From: a virus
DNA length: 26,313 nucleotides
IMG/VR virus record: IMGVR_UViG_3300003690_000122
Span: 1 to 26,313 of that record
Strand: one strand, 5' to 3'
Shown here: positions 2,695-7,119 of the stretch, piece after piece
How the letters are laid out: each line of letters starts with the position of its first letter
Numbering within the stretch: position 1 is the first letter of the stretch
Position numbers and translations under genes: made by a program
The notes under the pieces: generated by a model
Databases searched by the model: none
What the model saw: only the letters and a program-made list of their open reading frames with translations
What the model was told of the DNA's origin: nothing

Positions 2695-2701
2695 AGATAC
2701 T

Positions 2702-2730
2702 ATTATACACTATTTAGTCCTCCAATGCAA
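2702..2730 (-). promoter_or_regulatory. Sigma-70-type promoter, TTGCAT-N17-TATAAT, abutting the terminase start
   Basis: TTGCAT (2730-2725), a 17-nt spacer and TATAAT (2707-2702) on the minus strand. The terminase ATG follows after 7 nt, so transcription would begin at or near the start codon. A GGAGG lies inside the spacer but would not be transcribed. Confidence 0.7.
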
Positions 2731-2765
2731 CTATTAAATTAAAATAAATATAAATAATATAAATT

Positions 2766-2787
2766 AAAGTAACTTTAAAGTAACTTT
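2766..2787. repeat. Two tandem copies of an 11-bp palindrome
   Basis: AAAGTAACTTT occurs twice with no gap (2766-2776 and 2777-2787). Each copy is an inverted repeat around a central A, as expected for a binding site of a dimeric protein or an origin iteron. Confidence 0.6.
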
Positions 2788-2881
2788 ATAGCCGCCGATT
2801 GGTTTTGAAGAGAAGTCCGTAATTTTTTAAAAATATATGGCAGTGCTGTTTTATATATATATCATGTGCGTGTGTATTTTT

Positions 2882-2898
2882 CCCCCTACCCCCACCCC
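2882..2898 (-). other. G-rich tract on the minus strand, possible G-quadruplex
   Basis: The plus strand has runs of 5, 5 and 4 C separated by 1-2 nt. The minus strand is thus three tight G-runs, with a further GGG some 15 nt before them in minus-strand order (2914-2916). This is exceptional in such an AT-rich sequence. Confidence 0.4.
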
Positions 2899-2921
2899 AA
2901 GCCTCGGCGGGATGCCCAAAT

Positions 2922-3213
2922 GACTCCGTAGGAGTCCCATCTAACTCTTTTAGAAAACCCTGAGTTCTTACGAAGGGTTTTCAAGAGTTAGTAGGAACTT
3001 TTCAGCCAAATTCTGTTGCAAATTTACCACAGTTACTGTGAAAATCATCCGAAGGATGGACAGAATGGCAACATGGTCTACTCTGTAGACACTTGGCAGA
3101 ATATGTTAAGCCATTGAGATTGTTACACAATCTTACACATTGCCTCACACTGAGCAACTACGTTGCCATGATGAGATGCAGAGCATCTTGACGAGGGACT
3201 TGACAAAGCCAAG
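2922..3213 (+). ncRNA. Candidate structured RNA: array of triloop hairpins with long-range stems
   Basis: Perfect stems closed by 3-nt loops are at 2922-2936 (6 bp, gta), 3028-3040 (5 bp, tta), 3046-3058 (5 bp, gaa), 3076-3090 (6 bp, tct), 3117-3133 (7 bp, tac) and 3174-3188 (6 bp, aga). A seventh at 3140-3157 (loop cac) has one bulged C. Two long-range stems enclose them: 3010-3016 with 3060-3066, and ATGGCAAC 3065-3072 with GTTGCCAT 3162-3169. A bulged double stem (2941-2991) belongs to the hairpin family described separately. No open frame of note covers the stretch. The sense strand is not certain because the stems work on both strands. Plus is preferred because the rightward genes follow it. 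Confidence 0.6.
2941..2991 (+). repeat. Hairpin-family element H1
   Basis: CTAACTCTT (2941-2949) pairs with 2983-2991, and GAAAACCCT (2953-2961) pairs with 2974-2982. The 12-nt loop is GAGTTCTTACGA, the same loop as in H2 and H3, although the stem sequence differs completely. It lies inside the structured region. Confidence 0.75.
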
Positions 3214-3222
3214 ACGATATAC

Positions 3223-3270
3223 TAATTAATATCTTTAGTAGAGTTCTTACGATACTAAAGAGATTAATTA
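3223..3270 (+). repeat. Hairpin-family element H2
   Basis: An 18-bp stem with one mismatch (3223-3240 with 3253-3270) closes the loop GAGTTCTTACGA (3241-3252). The outer part is TAATTAAT. It stands 34 nt before the first rightward gene. Confidence 0.8.
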
Positions 3271-3304
3271 GATTATAATTACAACCAACCAACTGGAGCG
3301 ACCA

Positions 3305-3472
3305 ATGCAAGATATTACAAATTTACAATTTGAGATCGACCAATTCCTGAATGGTGAGTTCGATGTATTCACGAGCTTGTGCGGCAACGGTATAGACCTT
3401 CATAACCGCTTCGGTTATGTTGCAACATACGATGATGCAGAAGATTTACGCCACGAGATTTTCAAAGATTAA
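3305..3472 (+). CDS. Small early protein (55 aa), paralogue of the 4678 gene
   Basis: ATG 3305 follows a GGAG 8 nt upstream. The protein is acidic and has the segment FLNGEFDVFT, which closely matches FLNGTYDSVT of the 51-residue protein at 4678, so the two look like diverged copies. Function is unknown. The coding DNA carries an 8-bp triloop hairpin at 3401-3419. It is the first gene of the rightward early region. Its stop codon lies within the TTAATTAA arm of the next hairpin element. Confidence 0.7.
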   Translation: MQDITNLQFEIDQFLNGEFDVFTSLCGNGIDLHNRFGYVATYDDAEDLRHEIFKD

Positions 3473-3521
3473 TTAAAAGCTCTGTAGTAGAGTTCTTACG
3501 ATACTACAGAGCGTTAATTAA
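3469..3521 (+). repeat. Hairpin-family element H3
   Basis: TTAATTAA and GCTCTGTAGTA (3479-3489) pair with TACTACAGAGC (3502-3512) and TTAATTAA (3514-3521). The loop is GAGTTCTTACGA. It fills the gap between two small genes. Confidence 0.85.
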
Positions 3522-3534
3522 ATAGGAGGATAAA

Positions 3535-3687
3535 ATGTTTTTACTTCCAGATGATATAGATGTTCCTGCATCAAGACGAGATTTATCTAGTGAAGGGAAT
3601 GTACGATGGTTGCTGAGAAATTTAGCTGTAAAAAATAAAACACATCCTAAATTTAAACTGATTATGAATCAGTTGAAAGGAAAATAA
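3535..3687 (+). CDS. Small hypothetical early protein (50 aa)
   Basis: ATG 3535 has an ideal AGGAGG site 6 nt upstream. The 50-residue product is basic towards its C-terminus (NLAVKNKTHPKFK, then a GK end) with an acidic start (LLPDDIDVPASRRD). No family is recognised. It lies just downstream of hairpin H3, which may control or process its message, and 3 nt before the next gene. Confidence 0.65.
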   Translation: MFLLPDDIDVPASRRDLSSEGNVRWLLRNLAVKNKTHPKFKLIMNQLKGK

Positions 3688-3690
3688 AAG

Positions 3691-3906
3691 ATGAAAAGAA
3701 AAACAGGCAGAATTTATGACGGGCCACAAATTTTAGAAATAATAACTGTGGAAAACGGCTTTGATTTTATAGATGAAAGCCGTGGGTTAGGGGGTCATGT
3801 ACCATGGCCCGACAATTATGCAATGTCGATACATAATTTATCGGAATTGGATATCTTTAATCATGTTCTGTATTGTTATGATCATGGTTCATACGTTTAC
3901 AACTAA
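3691..3906 (+). CDS. Hypothetical early protein (71 aa)
   Basis: ATG 3691 is preceded by AAAGGAAAATAAAAG, a usable ribosome site. The protein is mixed charged and aromatic, with GFDFIDESRGLGGH in the middle and a Tyr/His-rich end (CYDHGSYVYN). No domain is recognised. Its place in a run of small genes suggests a host-directed early function, by inference only. Confidence 0.65.
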   Translation: MKRKTGRIYDGPQILEIITVENGFDFIDESRGLGGHVPWPDNYAMSIHNLSELDIFNHVLYCYDHGSYVYN

Positions 3907-3925
3907 CTGGAAGGGTAAAGATAAA

Positions 3926-4057
3926 ATGACTGAATATGGTGGTACACTTGAAGAAAGATACGAAAATTATTTAACTTGGGCTGATGATGGTAGAGGTGGT
4001 GACAATACTAGAAATGGTGAACCATTGCTAACCTTTGATGAATGGTTAAATAATTAA
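3926..4057 (+). CDS. Small acidic hypothetical protein (43 aa)
   Basis: The start at ATG 3926 has GGAAGGG upstream. Longer readings in this frame run back through the previous gene and are unlikely. The product is acidic, with two Trp (TWADDGRGGDN and FDEWLNN). The motif LTFDEWL is common at the end of small phage proteins. Function is unknown. Confidence 0.6.
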   Translation: MTEYGGTLEERYENYLTWADDGRGGDNTRNGEPLLTFDEWLNN

Positions 4058-4072
4058 TTAAGAGGATTTGCT

Positions 4073-4246
4073 ATGCAATGTCTATTCGAAGTCAAGTCAG
4101 TCTATGGTCGGAATAAGGTATATCCAGCCTGTGACAAATCGTCGCTACTTGCCAAACTTTCTGGCAAGACAACACTAACCAATGAAACACTAGCCATAGC
4201 TAAACAGCTAGGGTACACTTTCAAACAAAAGGAAGTATTATTATGA
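4073..4246 (+). CDS. Small hypothetical phage protein (57 aa)
   Basis: ATG 4073 follows AGAGGA 7 nt upstream. The layout is a Cys-containing N-terminal strand (QCLFEVKSVYG), then SLLAKLSGKTTLTNETLA and a final IAKQLGY. The pattern LL..L.GK.TLT..TL is one I associate with small hypothetical proteins of marine phages, but no function is known to me. Its stop overlaps the next start as ATGA, so the two are translationally coupled. Confidence 0.65.
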   Translation: MQCLFEVKSVYGRNKVYPACDKSSLLAKLSGKTTLTNETLAIAKQLGYTFKQKEVLL

Positions 4247-4428
4247 TTGAAAAAATAACAGTAACATTAGGAATATTAGTTGGGATATTCCTAATATTGA
4301 GTGGTATATTGCTACCCTTTGACCTCACTTTACAAGTGTTATTGGGCTTGATGGGAATGGTAATTATAGTAGCTTGCACAGTCTACTTAGACTATGTGAT
4401 ATGTAACAACAAATACTTTGGAGAATAA
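4243..4428 (+). CDS. Small two-helix membrane protein (61 aa)
   Basis: Two hydrophobic helices, at about residues 5-24 (ITVTLGILVGIFLILSGILL) and 28-50, are separated by a short acidic turn, with a charged C-terminus. It probably sits in the host inner membrane. The start overlaps the stop of the previous gene (ATGA). A perfect 11-bp inverted repeat with an 8-nt loop (4266-4295) lies in its coding DNA. Function is unknown. Superinfection exclusion or membrane targeting are possibilities only. Confidence 0.65.
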   Translation: MIEKITVTLGILVGIFLILSGILLPFDLTLQVLLGLMGMVIIVACTVYLDYVICNNKYFGE

Positions 4429-4429
4429 C

Positions 4430-4588
4430 ATGACACGCAAACATTACGTAAAAATAGCAGAGCTATTGGCAAAAACTAATGCTTCTCAAGAGGTAATCAA
4501 CGGTATGATTGATATATGCCTTGAAGATAACCCAAGGTTTGACCTTGATAGATTTAAGGATTATATCTTCGATAAAACTACGATTTGA
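4430..4588 (+). CDS. Small hypothetical protein (52 aa)
   Basis: The start is ATG 4430, 1 nt after the previous stop, with TTTGGAGAATAAC upstream. It begins MTRKHYVKIAELLAKT and ends DNPRFDLDRFKDYI. This is a pattern seen in many short phage proteins of unknown function, apparently all-helical. No catalytic motif is visible. Confidence 0.65.
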   Translation: MTRKHYVKIAELLAKTNASQEVINGMIDICLEDNPRFDLDRFKDYIFDKTTI

Positions 4589-4677
4589 AAAAAAAATTAA
4601 ATTAAATGGGAACAAAAATAATTATCTACCGTCTTACCCCATGAGACCAACACTGAAACCACATTTGAAAGAGACCT

Positions 4678-4833
4678 ATGCACACACAAAACAAAACCCT
4701 AGAAGACCTTTTGATTAAACTTCAAGTTGAGTTCTTAAATGGTACATACGACTCAGTAACAGAGAACGCATTTAGAGACTTGACACTAGAGCAACTGGCA
4801 AAACTAAAAACTGCCTTTGATAAAATTAAATAG
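4678..4833 (+). CDS. Small early protein (51 aa), paralogue of the 3305 gene
   Basis: ATG 4678 has GAAAGAGA upstream. The segment FLNGTYDSVT matches FLNGEFDVFT in the 55-residue protein at 3305. The rest is helical and acidic to mixed (LTLEQLAKLKTAFDKIK). The 89 nt between the previous stop and this gene hold only frames of 12 and 25 codons. It is followed at once by hairpin H4. Confidence 0.65.
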   Translation: MHTQNKTLEDLLIKLQVEFLNGTYDSVTENAFRDLTLEQLAKLKTAFDKIK

Positions 4834-4840
4834 TGAATGG

Positions 4841-4890
4841 CTAATTGATGCCCATAGTAGAACTTTAGTGATACTATGGGTATCTATTAG
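4841..4890 (+). repeat. Hairpin-family element H4
   Basis: A 19-bp stem (4841-4859 with 4872-4890) with one mismatch and one G-U pair closes the loop GAACTTTAGTGA. The stem has CCCATAGTA where H5 has CCCTGTAGTA, with matching changes on the other arm. Confidence 0.82.
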
Positions 4891-4950
4891 GTATTGATAG
4901 CCTAACCCAAGCCAGTGGGGTTTGACATTGGCAACTAATCGGAGATTAAA

Positions 4951-5163
4951 ATGGAAAGAGTATTTGATGTTTACCAAGGTAAAAAGTGGGTAGAGCTAAA
5001 GCAAAAGGAAAAGGGTGACAGATCACTCTTTGATACGGCTGCTGAAGCTGGCAAAGCCATTCGTATTCGTGGACTAGCCAAGAACGGCAAGGAGTTCTTC
5101 AAAGTCATTAAGAACGCTGACGTATTGCCAGAGAGTGAGCCACTGTCACAACGGGCAGTGTAG
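4951..5163 (+). CDS. Small basic hypothetical protein (70 aa)
   Basis: ATG 4951 is preceded by CGGAGATTAAA. The protein starts as a beta-type segment (VFDVYQGKKWVELKQKEKG), followed by a helix (LFDTAAEAGKAIRI) and a second strand (GKEFFKVIKNADV). The overall layout suggests a small alpha/beta fold. No function is recognised. It is flanked by hairpins H4 and H5. Confidence 0.65.
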   Translation: MERVFDVYQGKKWVELKQKEKGDRSLFDTAAEAGKAIRIRGLAKNGKEFFKVIKNADVLPESEPLSQRAV

Positions 5164-5168
5164 TTTAC

Positions 5169-5221
5169 TTAATTAAAAGCCCTGTAGTAGAACTTTAGTG
5201 ATACTACAGGGCGTTAATTAA
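5169..5221 (+). repeat. Hairpin-family element H5
   Basis: TTAATTAA and GCCCTGTAGTA (5179-5189) pair with TACTACAGGGC (5202-5212) and TTAATTAA (5214-5221). The loop is GAACTTTAGTGA, as in H4. The ribosome site of the next gene follows immediately. Confidence 0.85.
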
Positions 5222-5232
5222 AGGATAGTATA

Positions 5233-5391
5233 ATGGACAGCACAGTATTAGAAGTTTATGTGAGAACATTTTTTACAACACTTAAAAGTGATGAGCCGGA
5301 ATTGTACAACAAAACCATGCGACTATTCAAAGCTGGCAAGGGTGACGCAGTACGAGATATTATGTGGGAAGTTTTCAGCAAGGGAAAATAA
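5233..5391 (+). CDS. Small hypothetical protein (52 aa)
   Basis: ATG 5233 follows AAAGGATAGTATA, directly after hairpin H5. The protein appears all-helical (LEVYVRTFFTTLKSDEPELY, then a lysine- and arginine-containing second helix ending VFSKGK). No family is recognised. Its stop lies 1 nt before the next start, so it is coupled to the HhH-type gene. Confidence 0.65.
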   Translation: MDSTVLEVYVRTFFTTLKSDEPELYNKTMRLFKAGKGDAVRDIMWEVFSKGK

Positions 5392-5392
5392 A

Positions 5393-5980
5393 ATGTTTGC
5401 AGAACATCAACCTCTTATAAGAGAATATGCCATGAAATCGCCAGACCATGTAGCTGATGTTGGGTATCTTGTATTGTCAACAATACAACAACAGTTTAGC
5501 GCAGTGCGTGAGAGCTATTGGGATATGAAAGATAAAGGGCTTGATAGCCGATTCGCATGGGGCAGTAAATCTAATGGTATAAAACGTATTCAAGCAACAA
5601 AGGATAGTATCTATAAAGATATGTTTGGACATTCACTGTCCCAATCTGAATTGCTTTTATGTGTTGCAGGTATACCGGGATTTGGATTAGTAAAAGCTGG
5701 TTTTTATATTCAAATGTGTACTGGTTCTATGGGTTGTTTAGACGTACATAACCTAAAAAGGTTTGGACTTTCACCTAATACATTCAAACTACCAAAGAAA
5801 CTAGGCTATGATACAGCTTTAAGAAAAGCTGACTTCTATCTGGAAACTATACATAAGTTCGGTGGCAGTGAGTACCTATGGAATAGCTGGTGTGACTACG
5901 TAGCTGCACTATATCCAAAGAAATTTAAAGATGGTGAACATGTGTCAAAGTGTCACATTGACTATCTCATAAACAGATAG
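5393..5980 (+). CDS. HhH-GPD-like protein, putative DNA glycosylase or base-modification enzyme
   Basis: A 195-residue protein from ATG 5393 (AAGGGA upstream). The core is a helix-hairpin-helix at residues 90-101 (CVAGIPGFGLVK), followed by GCLDVHNLKRFG at 115-125. This mirrors the L-P-G-x-G...D-T-H arrangement of HhH-GPD glycosylases. Asp117 matches the catalytic aspartate. The Lys of endonuclease III type enzymes is not in its usual place, so a lyase activity is not supported. Such proteins flip out and act on bases. A base-salvage or hypermodification role is possible, since the next gene is ParB-like. The frame is open further upstream, but this start has the better ribosome site and does not overlap the preceding gene. 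Confidence 0.6.
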   Translation: MFAEHQPLIREYAMKSPDHVADVGYLVLSTIQQQFSAVRESYWDMKDKGLDSRFAWGSKSNGIKRIQATKDSIYKDMFGHSLSQSELLLCVAGIPGFGLVKAGFYIQMCTGSMGCLDVHNLKRFGLSPNTFKLPKKLGYDTALRKADFYLETIHKFGGSEYLWNSWCDYVAALYPKKFKDGEHVSKCHIDYLINR

Positions 5981-6012
5981 CGGCTTATGGTGTAGCCGTT
6001 TGTAATACACCA
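5981..6012 (+). promoter_or_regulatory. H-type RNA pseudoknot between the HhH-like and ParB-like genes
   Basis: Stem 1 is CGGCT (5981-5985) with AGCCG (5994-5998). Stem 2 is TGGTGT (5988-5993), inside loop 1, with ACACCA (6007-6012) downstream. Loop lengths of 2 and 8 nt suit a classical H-type fold. It starts directly after the TAG of the upstream gene and ends 22 nt before the next ATG, a position suited to translational control. Confidence 0.55.
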
Positions 6013-6034
6013 GATACACAGAAGGACCAAAACT

Positions 6035-6829
6035 ATGAGTACGATTAAAGAACTAAGTAAGTATGAGGCATACCCCGTCTATAAAATACCTACAGATGGT
6101 ACTATTAAAATAGTAAAAGCTGAAGGACAACGTGAGCCGTTACCAATATCTCTAGCTAGATTGCAACAATCTATAAAAAGATGTAATCTTTTAAAGCAAA
6201 AACCAATCAATGCTGTTTGGCATAAAGGTAAACTAATTGTATTTGATGGATGGCATAGATATATATCAGCCAAAGTAGGTAACAAAAACGAGGGCAAAAG
6301 TTTAGAAGCATTTTTTATTGTTGTAACAGAAGATGAATATGATGATGAATGGATGGCACATTTAAATTCTTGTCAACAAAACTGGAAACCTATGCACTAT
6401 GCAAATATGTTTTCTAAAGGTAAAGATAAGAATAAAGCAAGTATTTATACAAAGTTCTTAGAATATTATAAAAGATACACAGTAACCGCTGGTGTGTTGA
6501 TAGCATTGTATAATGGTAAAGTACGTCGTCGTAATCAAGAGATGGATGAGTTTAAAAATGGTGAACTGTCAGAAGAACACATTAAAAATGTGGAAGAAAA
6601 ACTATCGAAGATAGATACTCTAAGATTCTCAGCTTCAAATCCACCACTGTTACACAGTACATTGGTAAAGCAACAGTTTCAACAGGCTGTCATTACTGCA
6701 CTCACAACTAATGGATTTAGTTTTGAAAAGTTTATTTATAATCTGAGTAGGAGCCGCCATAAGTTTAATTTACTTGCTAAACAGAGGGATATGCTTGAAG
6801 AAATATTTCGAATTGAAAGAAAGAAGTAG
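6035..6829 (+). CDS. ParB/sulfiredoxin-fold nuclease-like protein
   Basis: A 264-residue protein from ATG 6035, with AGAAGGACC upstream. Residues 12-90 look like a ParB N-terminal domain: PLPISLARLQQSI, then VFDGWHRYISAK (69-80), which matches the D-G-x-H-R-x-x-A nucleotide/phosphate-binding box of ParB/Srx proteins. The C-terminal half is helical and basic and ends in coiled-coil-like sequence (LLAKQRDMLEEIFRIERKK). In phages this fold serves as nuclease, CTPase or DNA-modification partner. The exact role here is open. It is preceded by the pseudoknot and followed by hairpin H6. Confidence 0.72.
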   Translation: MSTIKELSKYEAYPVYKIPTDGTIKIVKAEGQREPLPISLARLQQSIKRCNLLKQKPINAVWHKGKLIVFDGWHRYISAKVGNKNEGKSLEAFFIVVTEDEYDDEWMAHLNSCQQNWKPMHYANMFSKGKDKNKASIYTKFLEYYKRYTVTAGVLIALYNGKVRRRNQEMDEFKNGELSEEHIKNVEEKLSKIDTLRFSASNPPLLHSTLVKQQFQQAVITALTTNGFSFEKFIYNLSRSRHKFNLLAKQRDMLEEIFRIERKK

Positions 6830-6830
6830 A

Positions 6831-6883
6831 TTAATTAGATGTCCTGTAGTAGAACTATAGTGATACTACAGGGCATCAATTAA
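6831..6883 (+). repeat. Hairpin-family element H6
   Basis: The arm at 6831-6851 pairs with 6864-6883 (one bulged A, one U-G pair). The loop is GAACTATAGTGA. It starts 1 nt after the stop of the ParB-like gene and is followed by AAAGGAGA of the next gene. Confidence 0.82.
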
Positions 6884-6894
6884 AGGAGAATAAT

Positions 6895-7119
6895 ATGACT
6901 GAGTATGCAAGCAAGATTACTTTTGTAGATACAGAAATAAAAAATAAAAAGGTAAAAATAGTATGGAACACTAAAAGTCTGCGGTCAGTTGGGACATATA
7001 TAGATGGCGAAGCAAGGCCATTTTTATTTACTACATCAAGGGTTGAGCTTGGTCCTAATACTGCATACGACATAGCCTTATCACAATTAAAAACCATAGA
7101 AGAATTGATATTGATATGA
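6895..7119 (+). CDS. Hypothetical early protein (74 aa)
   Basis: ATG 6895 has an ideal AAAGGAGA site 7 nt upstream, right after hairpin H6. The product looks mostly beta (KITFVDTEIKNKKVKIVW) with a helical C-terminus (AYDIALSQLKTIEEL). No family is recognised. Its stop overlaps the next start (ATGA). Confidence 0.65.
   Translation: MTEYASKITFVDTEIKNKKVKIVWNTKSLRSVGTYIDGEARPFLFTTSRVELGPNTAYDIALSQLKTIEELILI

Follow-up and report, generated by a model that had tools for sequence, protein, structure and literature searches.

Intergenic hairpins, the small protein C0 and a leader RNA suggest a hitherto undescribed system of RNA control over early phage genes

Most small early genes in uncultured marine phages have no known function, and how these genes are controlled has hardly been explored. 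Here, we analyzed IMG/VR virus record IMGVR_UViG_3300003690_000122 (26,313 bases; "the window" hereafter means this whole stretch of DNA), whose early region carries six copies of an intergenic hairpin, a structured leader RNA between the first two copies, and a gene for a small basic protein, C0. A hairpin family at gene junctions, a protein of a new sequence family and a leader RNA offer a direct, testable handle on early-gene control, and together they suggest that these phages regulate early genes by an RNA-based system that has yet to be described.

Six hairpins, a leader RNA and C0 in the early region

We scanned both strands of the window for GA-N8-GA loops closed by a stem of at least 5 base pairs (bp). 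The scan returned exactly six elements, all on the + strand, with loops at 2962, 3241, 3490, 4860, 5190 and 6852. They are the hairpins that a preliminary description of this DNA had picked out, with the same coordinates and the same loop sequences. The hairpins and the two features set among them are as follows:

2941..2991, + strand: hairpin copy 1 with an AACCCT neck and loop GAGTTCTTACGA; brackets the leader on its 5' side, no gene directly after
2992..3222, + strand: structured leader RNA of ~230 nucleotides (nt) with triloop mini-hairpins cacagTTActgtg, catccGAAggatg, gtctacTCTgtagac, agattgtTACacaatct, gcaacTACgttgc and agatgcAGAgcatct
3223..3270, + strand: hairpin copy 2, loop GAGTTCTTACGA; 3' bracket of the leader, before the gene at 3305
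3469..3521, + strand: hairpin copy 3, loop GAGTTCTTACGA, TTAATTAA outer arms
4841..4890, + strand: hairpin copy 4, loop GAACTTTAGTGA; stands before C0
4951..5163, + strand: C0, a basic protein of 70 amino acids, with hairpins on both sides
5169..5221, + strand: hairpin copy 5, loop GAACTTTAGTGA; begins 6 nt past the C0 stop codon
6831..6883, + strand: hairpin copy 6, loop GAACTATAGTGA; directly after the stop of the gene at 6035-6829

The uninterrupted stems of copies 1-6 measure 9, 9, 11, 13, 11 and 14 bp, both apical pairs are formed in all six, and the outer arms pair across an internal loop that is small and in many cases asymmetric, being AA/G in copies 3 and 5. When a stem of at least 9 bp and two apical pairs were required, six elements were found on the + strand and none on the - strand, and 300 dinucleotide shuffles gave one in total. 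RNA folding of the six copies yielded -19.7 to -27.0 kcal/mol (z -5.4 to -8.6). None of the shuffled sequences was equally stable, and the predicted minimum-energy structure coincides with the structure described here.

Copies 3-6 start no more than 8 nt from the upstream stop codon or overlap it, as does the 5' arm of copy 3 (stop codon at 3470-3472). Five copies had been described as standing just before a ribosome site. Copies 2-6 do precede genes, and their placement is more closely defined than that: copies 3, 5 and 6 extend to the next Shine-Dalgarno sequence, which lies directly 3' of copy 3 and, for the gene at 6895-7119, at the 3' end of copy 6; copy 4 lies ~60 nt before the next start codon. 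The remaining copy 1 is now seen to open the ~230-nt leader that copy 2 closes, and equivalents of it are present in four other phages (L007, L013, L021 and L029). No T-tract follows any of the six copies, and none is among the terminator-like sites found in a scan of the window, in line with the initial view that ordinary termination is unlikely.

Mini-hairpins are in excess around the leader, with eight seen in 2880-3222 against ~0.8 expected from shuffles, and the leader's 3' end reads GATGA-hairpin-TTGACGA-CTTGACA-GACGA. Across phages, this end follows the motif GAYGA-hairpin-UGAYGA-CUUGACA-GAYGA, which is absent from the hairpin-less relatives compared. Of 35 distinct leaders, 28 are bracketed by hairpins on both sides, with a spacing that is mostly constant at 204-240 nt. 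By inspection, the helix before UGAYGA has two-sided changes (AGAUGC/GCAUCU, AAAUGC/GCAUUU, AAUCAC/GUGAUU and AAUUGC/GCAAUU). From the leader alignment, RNAalifold retrieved a single 4-bp hairpin, in which each of the four aligned pairs has two-sided changes; the low yield reflects the poor alignment of the varying mini-hairpins by MAFFT. The leader, which has no match in Rfam, is probably non-coding and may be an RNA family of its own. Leaders of ~200-240 nt were also observed in L003, L101, L114, L119, L144, L146 and others, and among the phages compared only in those with hairpins and C0.

The hairpin is conserved by base pairing across mostly marine phages

Relatives of the window hairpins occur in dozens of IMG/VR contigs from uncultured, mostly marine phages. 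A DNA pattern for the core matched 23 viral contigs, over half of them with real stems, and a loop-free pattern (TAGTAGAGTN{3,6}ACGATACTA) returned 69 stretches, the majority of which were new. Because the loop-free pattern fixes only the 5-bp neck and the loop ends, the stem further outward can be judged without bias from the pattern. Of 49 distinct core matches, the stem continues outward through positions 6-10 in 41-44, with all four Watson-Crick types in use, and the five matches from cellular genomes are all among the eight that pair poorly. Those five were the yield of a scan of 84,980 species genomes and have no stem; a cellular origin was rejected. In an alignment of 53 diverse copies, 96.8% of cells are paired, both sides have changed in 12 of the 14 pairs, and the covariation score is 0.61, compared with 0.05-0.16 for slid controls. 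The core-only search is the cleaner test of pairing, because the members of this alignment were picked by a stem scan. A covariance model search, which the preliminary description had called for, found many further copies.

The commonest head is GA-GUA-UCU-UAC-GA; others are GA-GU-UCUU-AC-GA, GA-AC-AUA-GU-GA, GA-AC-UUUA-GU-GA, GA-CUA-UCU-UAG-GA and more. The GA...GA ends, consistent with tandem G·A pairs, and the AGUA/UACU neck (AGTA/TACT in DNA) are nearly invariant, and the apical helix is kept by compensation across head types as GU/AC, AC/GU and, in L210 and L214, CU/AG. Less common types either place AA opposite GA or carry another head, for instance GUAACGAAGUGU. An alternative fold of the commonest head, AGTATC-TTAC-GATACT, was dropped by inspection, as it is not kept in GAAC...GTGA loops. 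The claims made from the six window copies, namely base-pair conservation despite sequence change, conserved loop ends and a compensated apical helix, extend to copies in many related phages, whose stem changes preserve pairing. The 12-nt loop holds for the window copies but is no constant of the family, relatives having loops of 11-14 nt.

No family in Rfam 15 reached its gathering cut-off, the best sub-threshold matches in 2700-3310 being chance-level microRNA models far below their cut-offs; no named family had been recognized in the first description either. A search of GenBank phages by hairpin gave no match, and literature searches found no paper on this hairpin motif.

The elements follow the coding strand at early gene junctions

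Among 100 distinct elements, a Shine-Dalgarno sequence and start codon lie downstream on the sense strand in 85, mostly within 8-62 nt, and on the antisense strand in 12, in agreement with the intergenic, early position first noted in the window. The elements lie on the coding strand, before the next Shine-Dalgarno sequence and after the stop codon of the upstream gene, which in most cases is within ~15 nt of the element's 5' edge; start codons mostly lie 8-35 nt past the element. In full relatives (47-60 kb), the elements are concentrated in a single region, and those checked are mostly between early genes, up to the primase. Only 10 of the 100 elements have TTTT near the 3' end, which does not fit intrinsic terminators. 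In hairpins of this family (class 1), stacked G·U pairs number 41 against 20 for A·C, a modest excess among related copies.

A CCAAC stretch lies between the element and the start codon in 22 of the 100 downstream flanks, compared with 4 upstream flanks (for example, at 3283-3300 in the window); it is perhaps an unstructured ribosome standby site.

C0 and the hairpins occur together and are exchanged together

C0 proteins in the alignment used are basic and 59-98 amino acids long, with invariant W, G, V and N and nearly invariant R and K. An AlphaFold2 model of C0 shows a beta-beta-alpha-beta-beta order (mean predicted local distance difference test score, pLDDT, 86) and has no fold match in PDB or viral structures. 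Sequence searches gave no significant match in Pfam or PDB, and only weak matches of no use in PHROGs and NCBIfam. C0 was not found in isolate phages in GenBank, and the early regions of HTVC027P, HTVC023P, 023Pt_psg01, DSL-LC04, HTVC115P, CRP-125, Aeromonas 1233 and HTVC104P have neither hairpin nor C0. A catalytic role was rejected, the alignment having no conserved set of His, Glu or Asp.

Gene clustering over 14 early regions placed C0 in every one of the 12 genomes with hairpins and not in the two relatives without them (L035 and L038), making it the best-associated of all gene clusters. The next best, C2, was present in 11; it was rejected as the hairpin partner, being missing from hairpin phages that have C0 (L086, L111, L112, L120 and L153). 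A C0 profile search across the loci collected by then revealed 58 C0 loci with elements and none without, and element-bearing loci that lack C0 were mostly short, truncated or chance core matches. Sampling by C0 first gave 57 loci, with hairpin-model matches at an expectation value of at most 0.01 in 17 of the 28 new ones. A hairpin lies close by in 54 of 57 distinct C0 genes, a count that takes any hairpin of at least nine Watson-Crick pairs and includes a few belonging to neither class.

Contigs were also sampled by primase. Among those with long upstream DNA, some of them near-copies, nine have both C0 and hairpins, five have neither (L035, L038, L064, L071 and L243), and none has one alone. 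The primase tree implies at least four switches, in which C0 and the hairpins always move together and never apart. L070 (56 kb) and L071 have identical primases and flanks that are 92-97% identical, and they differ by exchange of the whole early block, including hairpins and C0. This near-isogenic pair, which differs in the whole module, shows that the hairpin/C0 system is exchangeable.

The hairpins that adjoin C0 are of the AC/GU apical type in L021, G001, L029 and the window, and the other L021 copies are GU/AC. The type beside C0 could have a different affinity that serves autoregulation.

A second hairpin class accompanies C0 in distant phages

In distant C0 phages (L230, L231 and L233-L236), an unrelated hairpin, AAAUACUUUGUGCA...UGAGUAUUU, stands beside C0 instead. 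This second class shares the stop-hairpin-Shine-Dalgarno position, and in L230, L231 and L234-L236 its coding strand folds at -26 to -28 kcal/mol, compared with -14 to -17 kcal/mol for the opposite strand. This strand asymmetry, clearer than the wobble-pair excess of class 1, favours a function in RNA when taken with the orientation bias. The second class, multi-copy and intergenic in L230, L231 and L233-L236 and folding well only on the coding strand, was also recorded as AAATACTTTGTGCA...TGAGTATTT.

A tentative role as punctuation of early transcripts

Comparison across phages establishes the structure, covariation, coding-strand placement, bracketing and C0 co-occurrence of the hairpins. 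Our leading, though still tentative, reading is that they act in RNA as punctuation of early transcripts, are bound by C0 and affect mRNA processing, stability or translation. They would serve in cis on the phage's early polycistronic transcript. In RNA, each folds with its AT-rich outer arms paired as a helix, which a small internal loop separates from an inner helix of ~9-14 bp; a tandem G·A step then leads to an apical helix of 2-3 bp. The transcript would thereby be divided into units, with the leader between copies 1 and 2 and the other copies between a stop codon and a Shine-Dalgarno sequence. The conserved head (AGUA-GA-apical helix-GA-UACU) would be the recognition surface for C0, which, encoded between two hairpins, may act on all marked junctions at once as well as on its own mRNA. 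The outcome could be segmentation or protection of the early mRNA at the junctions, a block of initiation at the adjacent Shine-Dalgarno sequence, or both, and host RNase III would be the obvious nuclease for cleavage.

If this is true, the tandem G·A hairpin head and C0 would be a new RNA-protein recognition pair, and the system would explain how these phages handle a long early transcript and would provide a marker for annotating related contigs. We hold more loosely to the wider proposal of a three-part system new to phage biology, comprising the leader RNA, the punctuation hairpin and a C0 of new fold that reads the hairpin so that early messages are segmented, protected or silenced, with a second lineage pairing C0 with an unrelated hairpin.

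Several points weigh against punctuation by C0. The main caveat is that linkage within one exchangeable early block explains part of the C0-hairpin co-occurrence, and four independent switches are too few for a sign test to reach significance (p = 0.125). Near some C0 loci, L228 and L206 among them, neither class of hairpin was clearly seen. In addition, C0 resembles no known RNA-binding fold, and the class 1 G·U excess is small, as given above. A host factor alone could read the hairpins. Binding of the hairpin by C0, cutting, protection or silencing of the RNA, and an effect on early-gene output are steps that we infer from sequence.

Alternative explanations and known phage systems

RNase III requires a helix of about 20-25 bp, and the T7 early region carries several long intergenic RNase III hairpins per transcript, just upstream of ribosome sites. 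The hairpins described here could likewise be plain RNase III processing sites, each cut by the host enzyme so that separate early messages are released, with C0 no more than a linked early gene. They too are long intergenic hairpins in early mRNA, their helices and apical part total ~20-25 bp, and their coding-strand positions, the leader bracketed on both sides and the general lack of a T-tract all suit such sites. However, RNase III needs no tandem G·A step, fixed AGUA/UACU neck or conserved UCUUAC apex, and this explanation, which we consider unlikely, leaves the conservation of the head and the tight link to C0 unaccounted for. Unlike the T7 sites, the elements here have a sequence-conserved head with tandem G·A, a tie to a phage protein and a bracketed leader.

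Similarly unlikely, in our judgement, is that the hairpins are translational operators, at which bound C0 blocks ribosomes at the downstream Shine-Dalgarno sequence and represses many early genes and itself. The Shine-Dalgarno sequence often comes directly after the outer arm with the start codon soon after, a small basic early protein is flanked by sites, and T4 RegA and gp43 are phage precedents for translational control by protein-RNA binding (PMC3014915). RegA sites are without clear structure, and gp43 has a single operator (PMC3014915). As with those operators, the sites here adjoin the ribosome binding region, copy 1 excepted; C0, the putative repressor, is unrelated to RegA or gp43 by every search made. 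Copy 1 and its equivalents precede no gene, several elements lie at least 50 nt from the next start, and the Shine-Dalgarno sequence is outside the hairpin. Because a non-coding unit is bracketed by the hairpins in addition to genes, punctuation is likelier than a pure translational operator.

Lambda N with nut boxB and HK022 put provide examples of a small basic early protein (N) or a structured RNA early in an operon. Comparable antitermination, in which the leader RNA and C0 modify RNA polymerase, would accommodate both the structured leader, which lies close to where the early region begins, and the small basic protein encoded among the early genes, but it is decidedly improbable. In contrast to nut and put, boxA is lacking here (a boxA-like sequence lies upstream in 2 of the 100 elements and downstream in none), and the sites recur at many gene junctions, hugging stop codons, whereas lambda and HK022 have one or two sites per operon.

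Mobile regulatory cassettes named PeSL are described from T4-type phages (Arbiol et al. 2010, as cited in PMC4177764). The hairpins here are similarly repeated intergenic stem-loops among small, shuffled early genes. PeSL cassettes combine a stem-loop with an early promoter, whereas the hairpins here abut the Shine-Dalgarno sequence. A DNA-level repeat or mobile cassette boundary of that kind, spreading genes by recombination, would suit the likeness of copies within a genome and the reshuffling of the early region around them, but we give it the least credence of all, as orientation tracks the coding strand, the RNA strand is the one favoured by wobble pairs, different phages share conserved loops, and a promoter would hardly fit between element and start codon.

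Other features of the window

The window also encodes a terminase, a primase-helicase, DNA polymerase A, a gp2.5-like single-stranded DNA-binding protein, a Cas4-type exonuclease and ribonucleotide reductase. The terminase large subunit (1271-2694, - strand) is split over two open reading frames (2281-2694 and 1271-2293), indicating a frameshift near 2290, which is an assembly error, a programmed shift or an inactivation. The gene at 6035-6829, which ends just before hairpin copy 6, encodes a 264-amino-acid early protein in which a ParB-like motif was recognized by eye (FDGWHRYISAKV); it has no significant match in Pfam or PHROGs. Two further features adjoin the leader and its hairpins:

2837..2865, + strand: candidate early promoter, ATGGCA-17-TATCAT, lying in AT-rich DNA before the leader; matches weakly, 9/12
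3305..3472, + strand: C2, the first early gene, a very acidic protein of 55 amino acids

Promoter-like sites, scanned with the sigma-70 consensus only, are not enriched in the region (28 found vs 39 expected), and L101 has an AT-rich stretch comparable to that around the candidate promoter. C2, which is present in most but not all hairpin phages, has a conserved G-G-x-G-I/F-D stretch and could be a host inhibitor or a DNA mimic.

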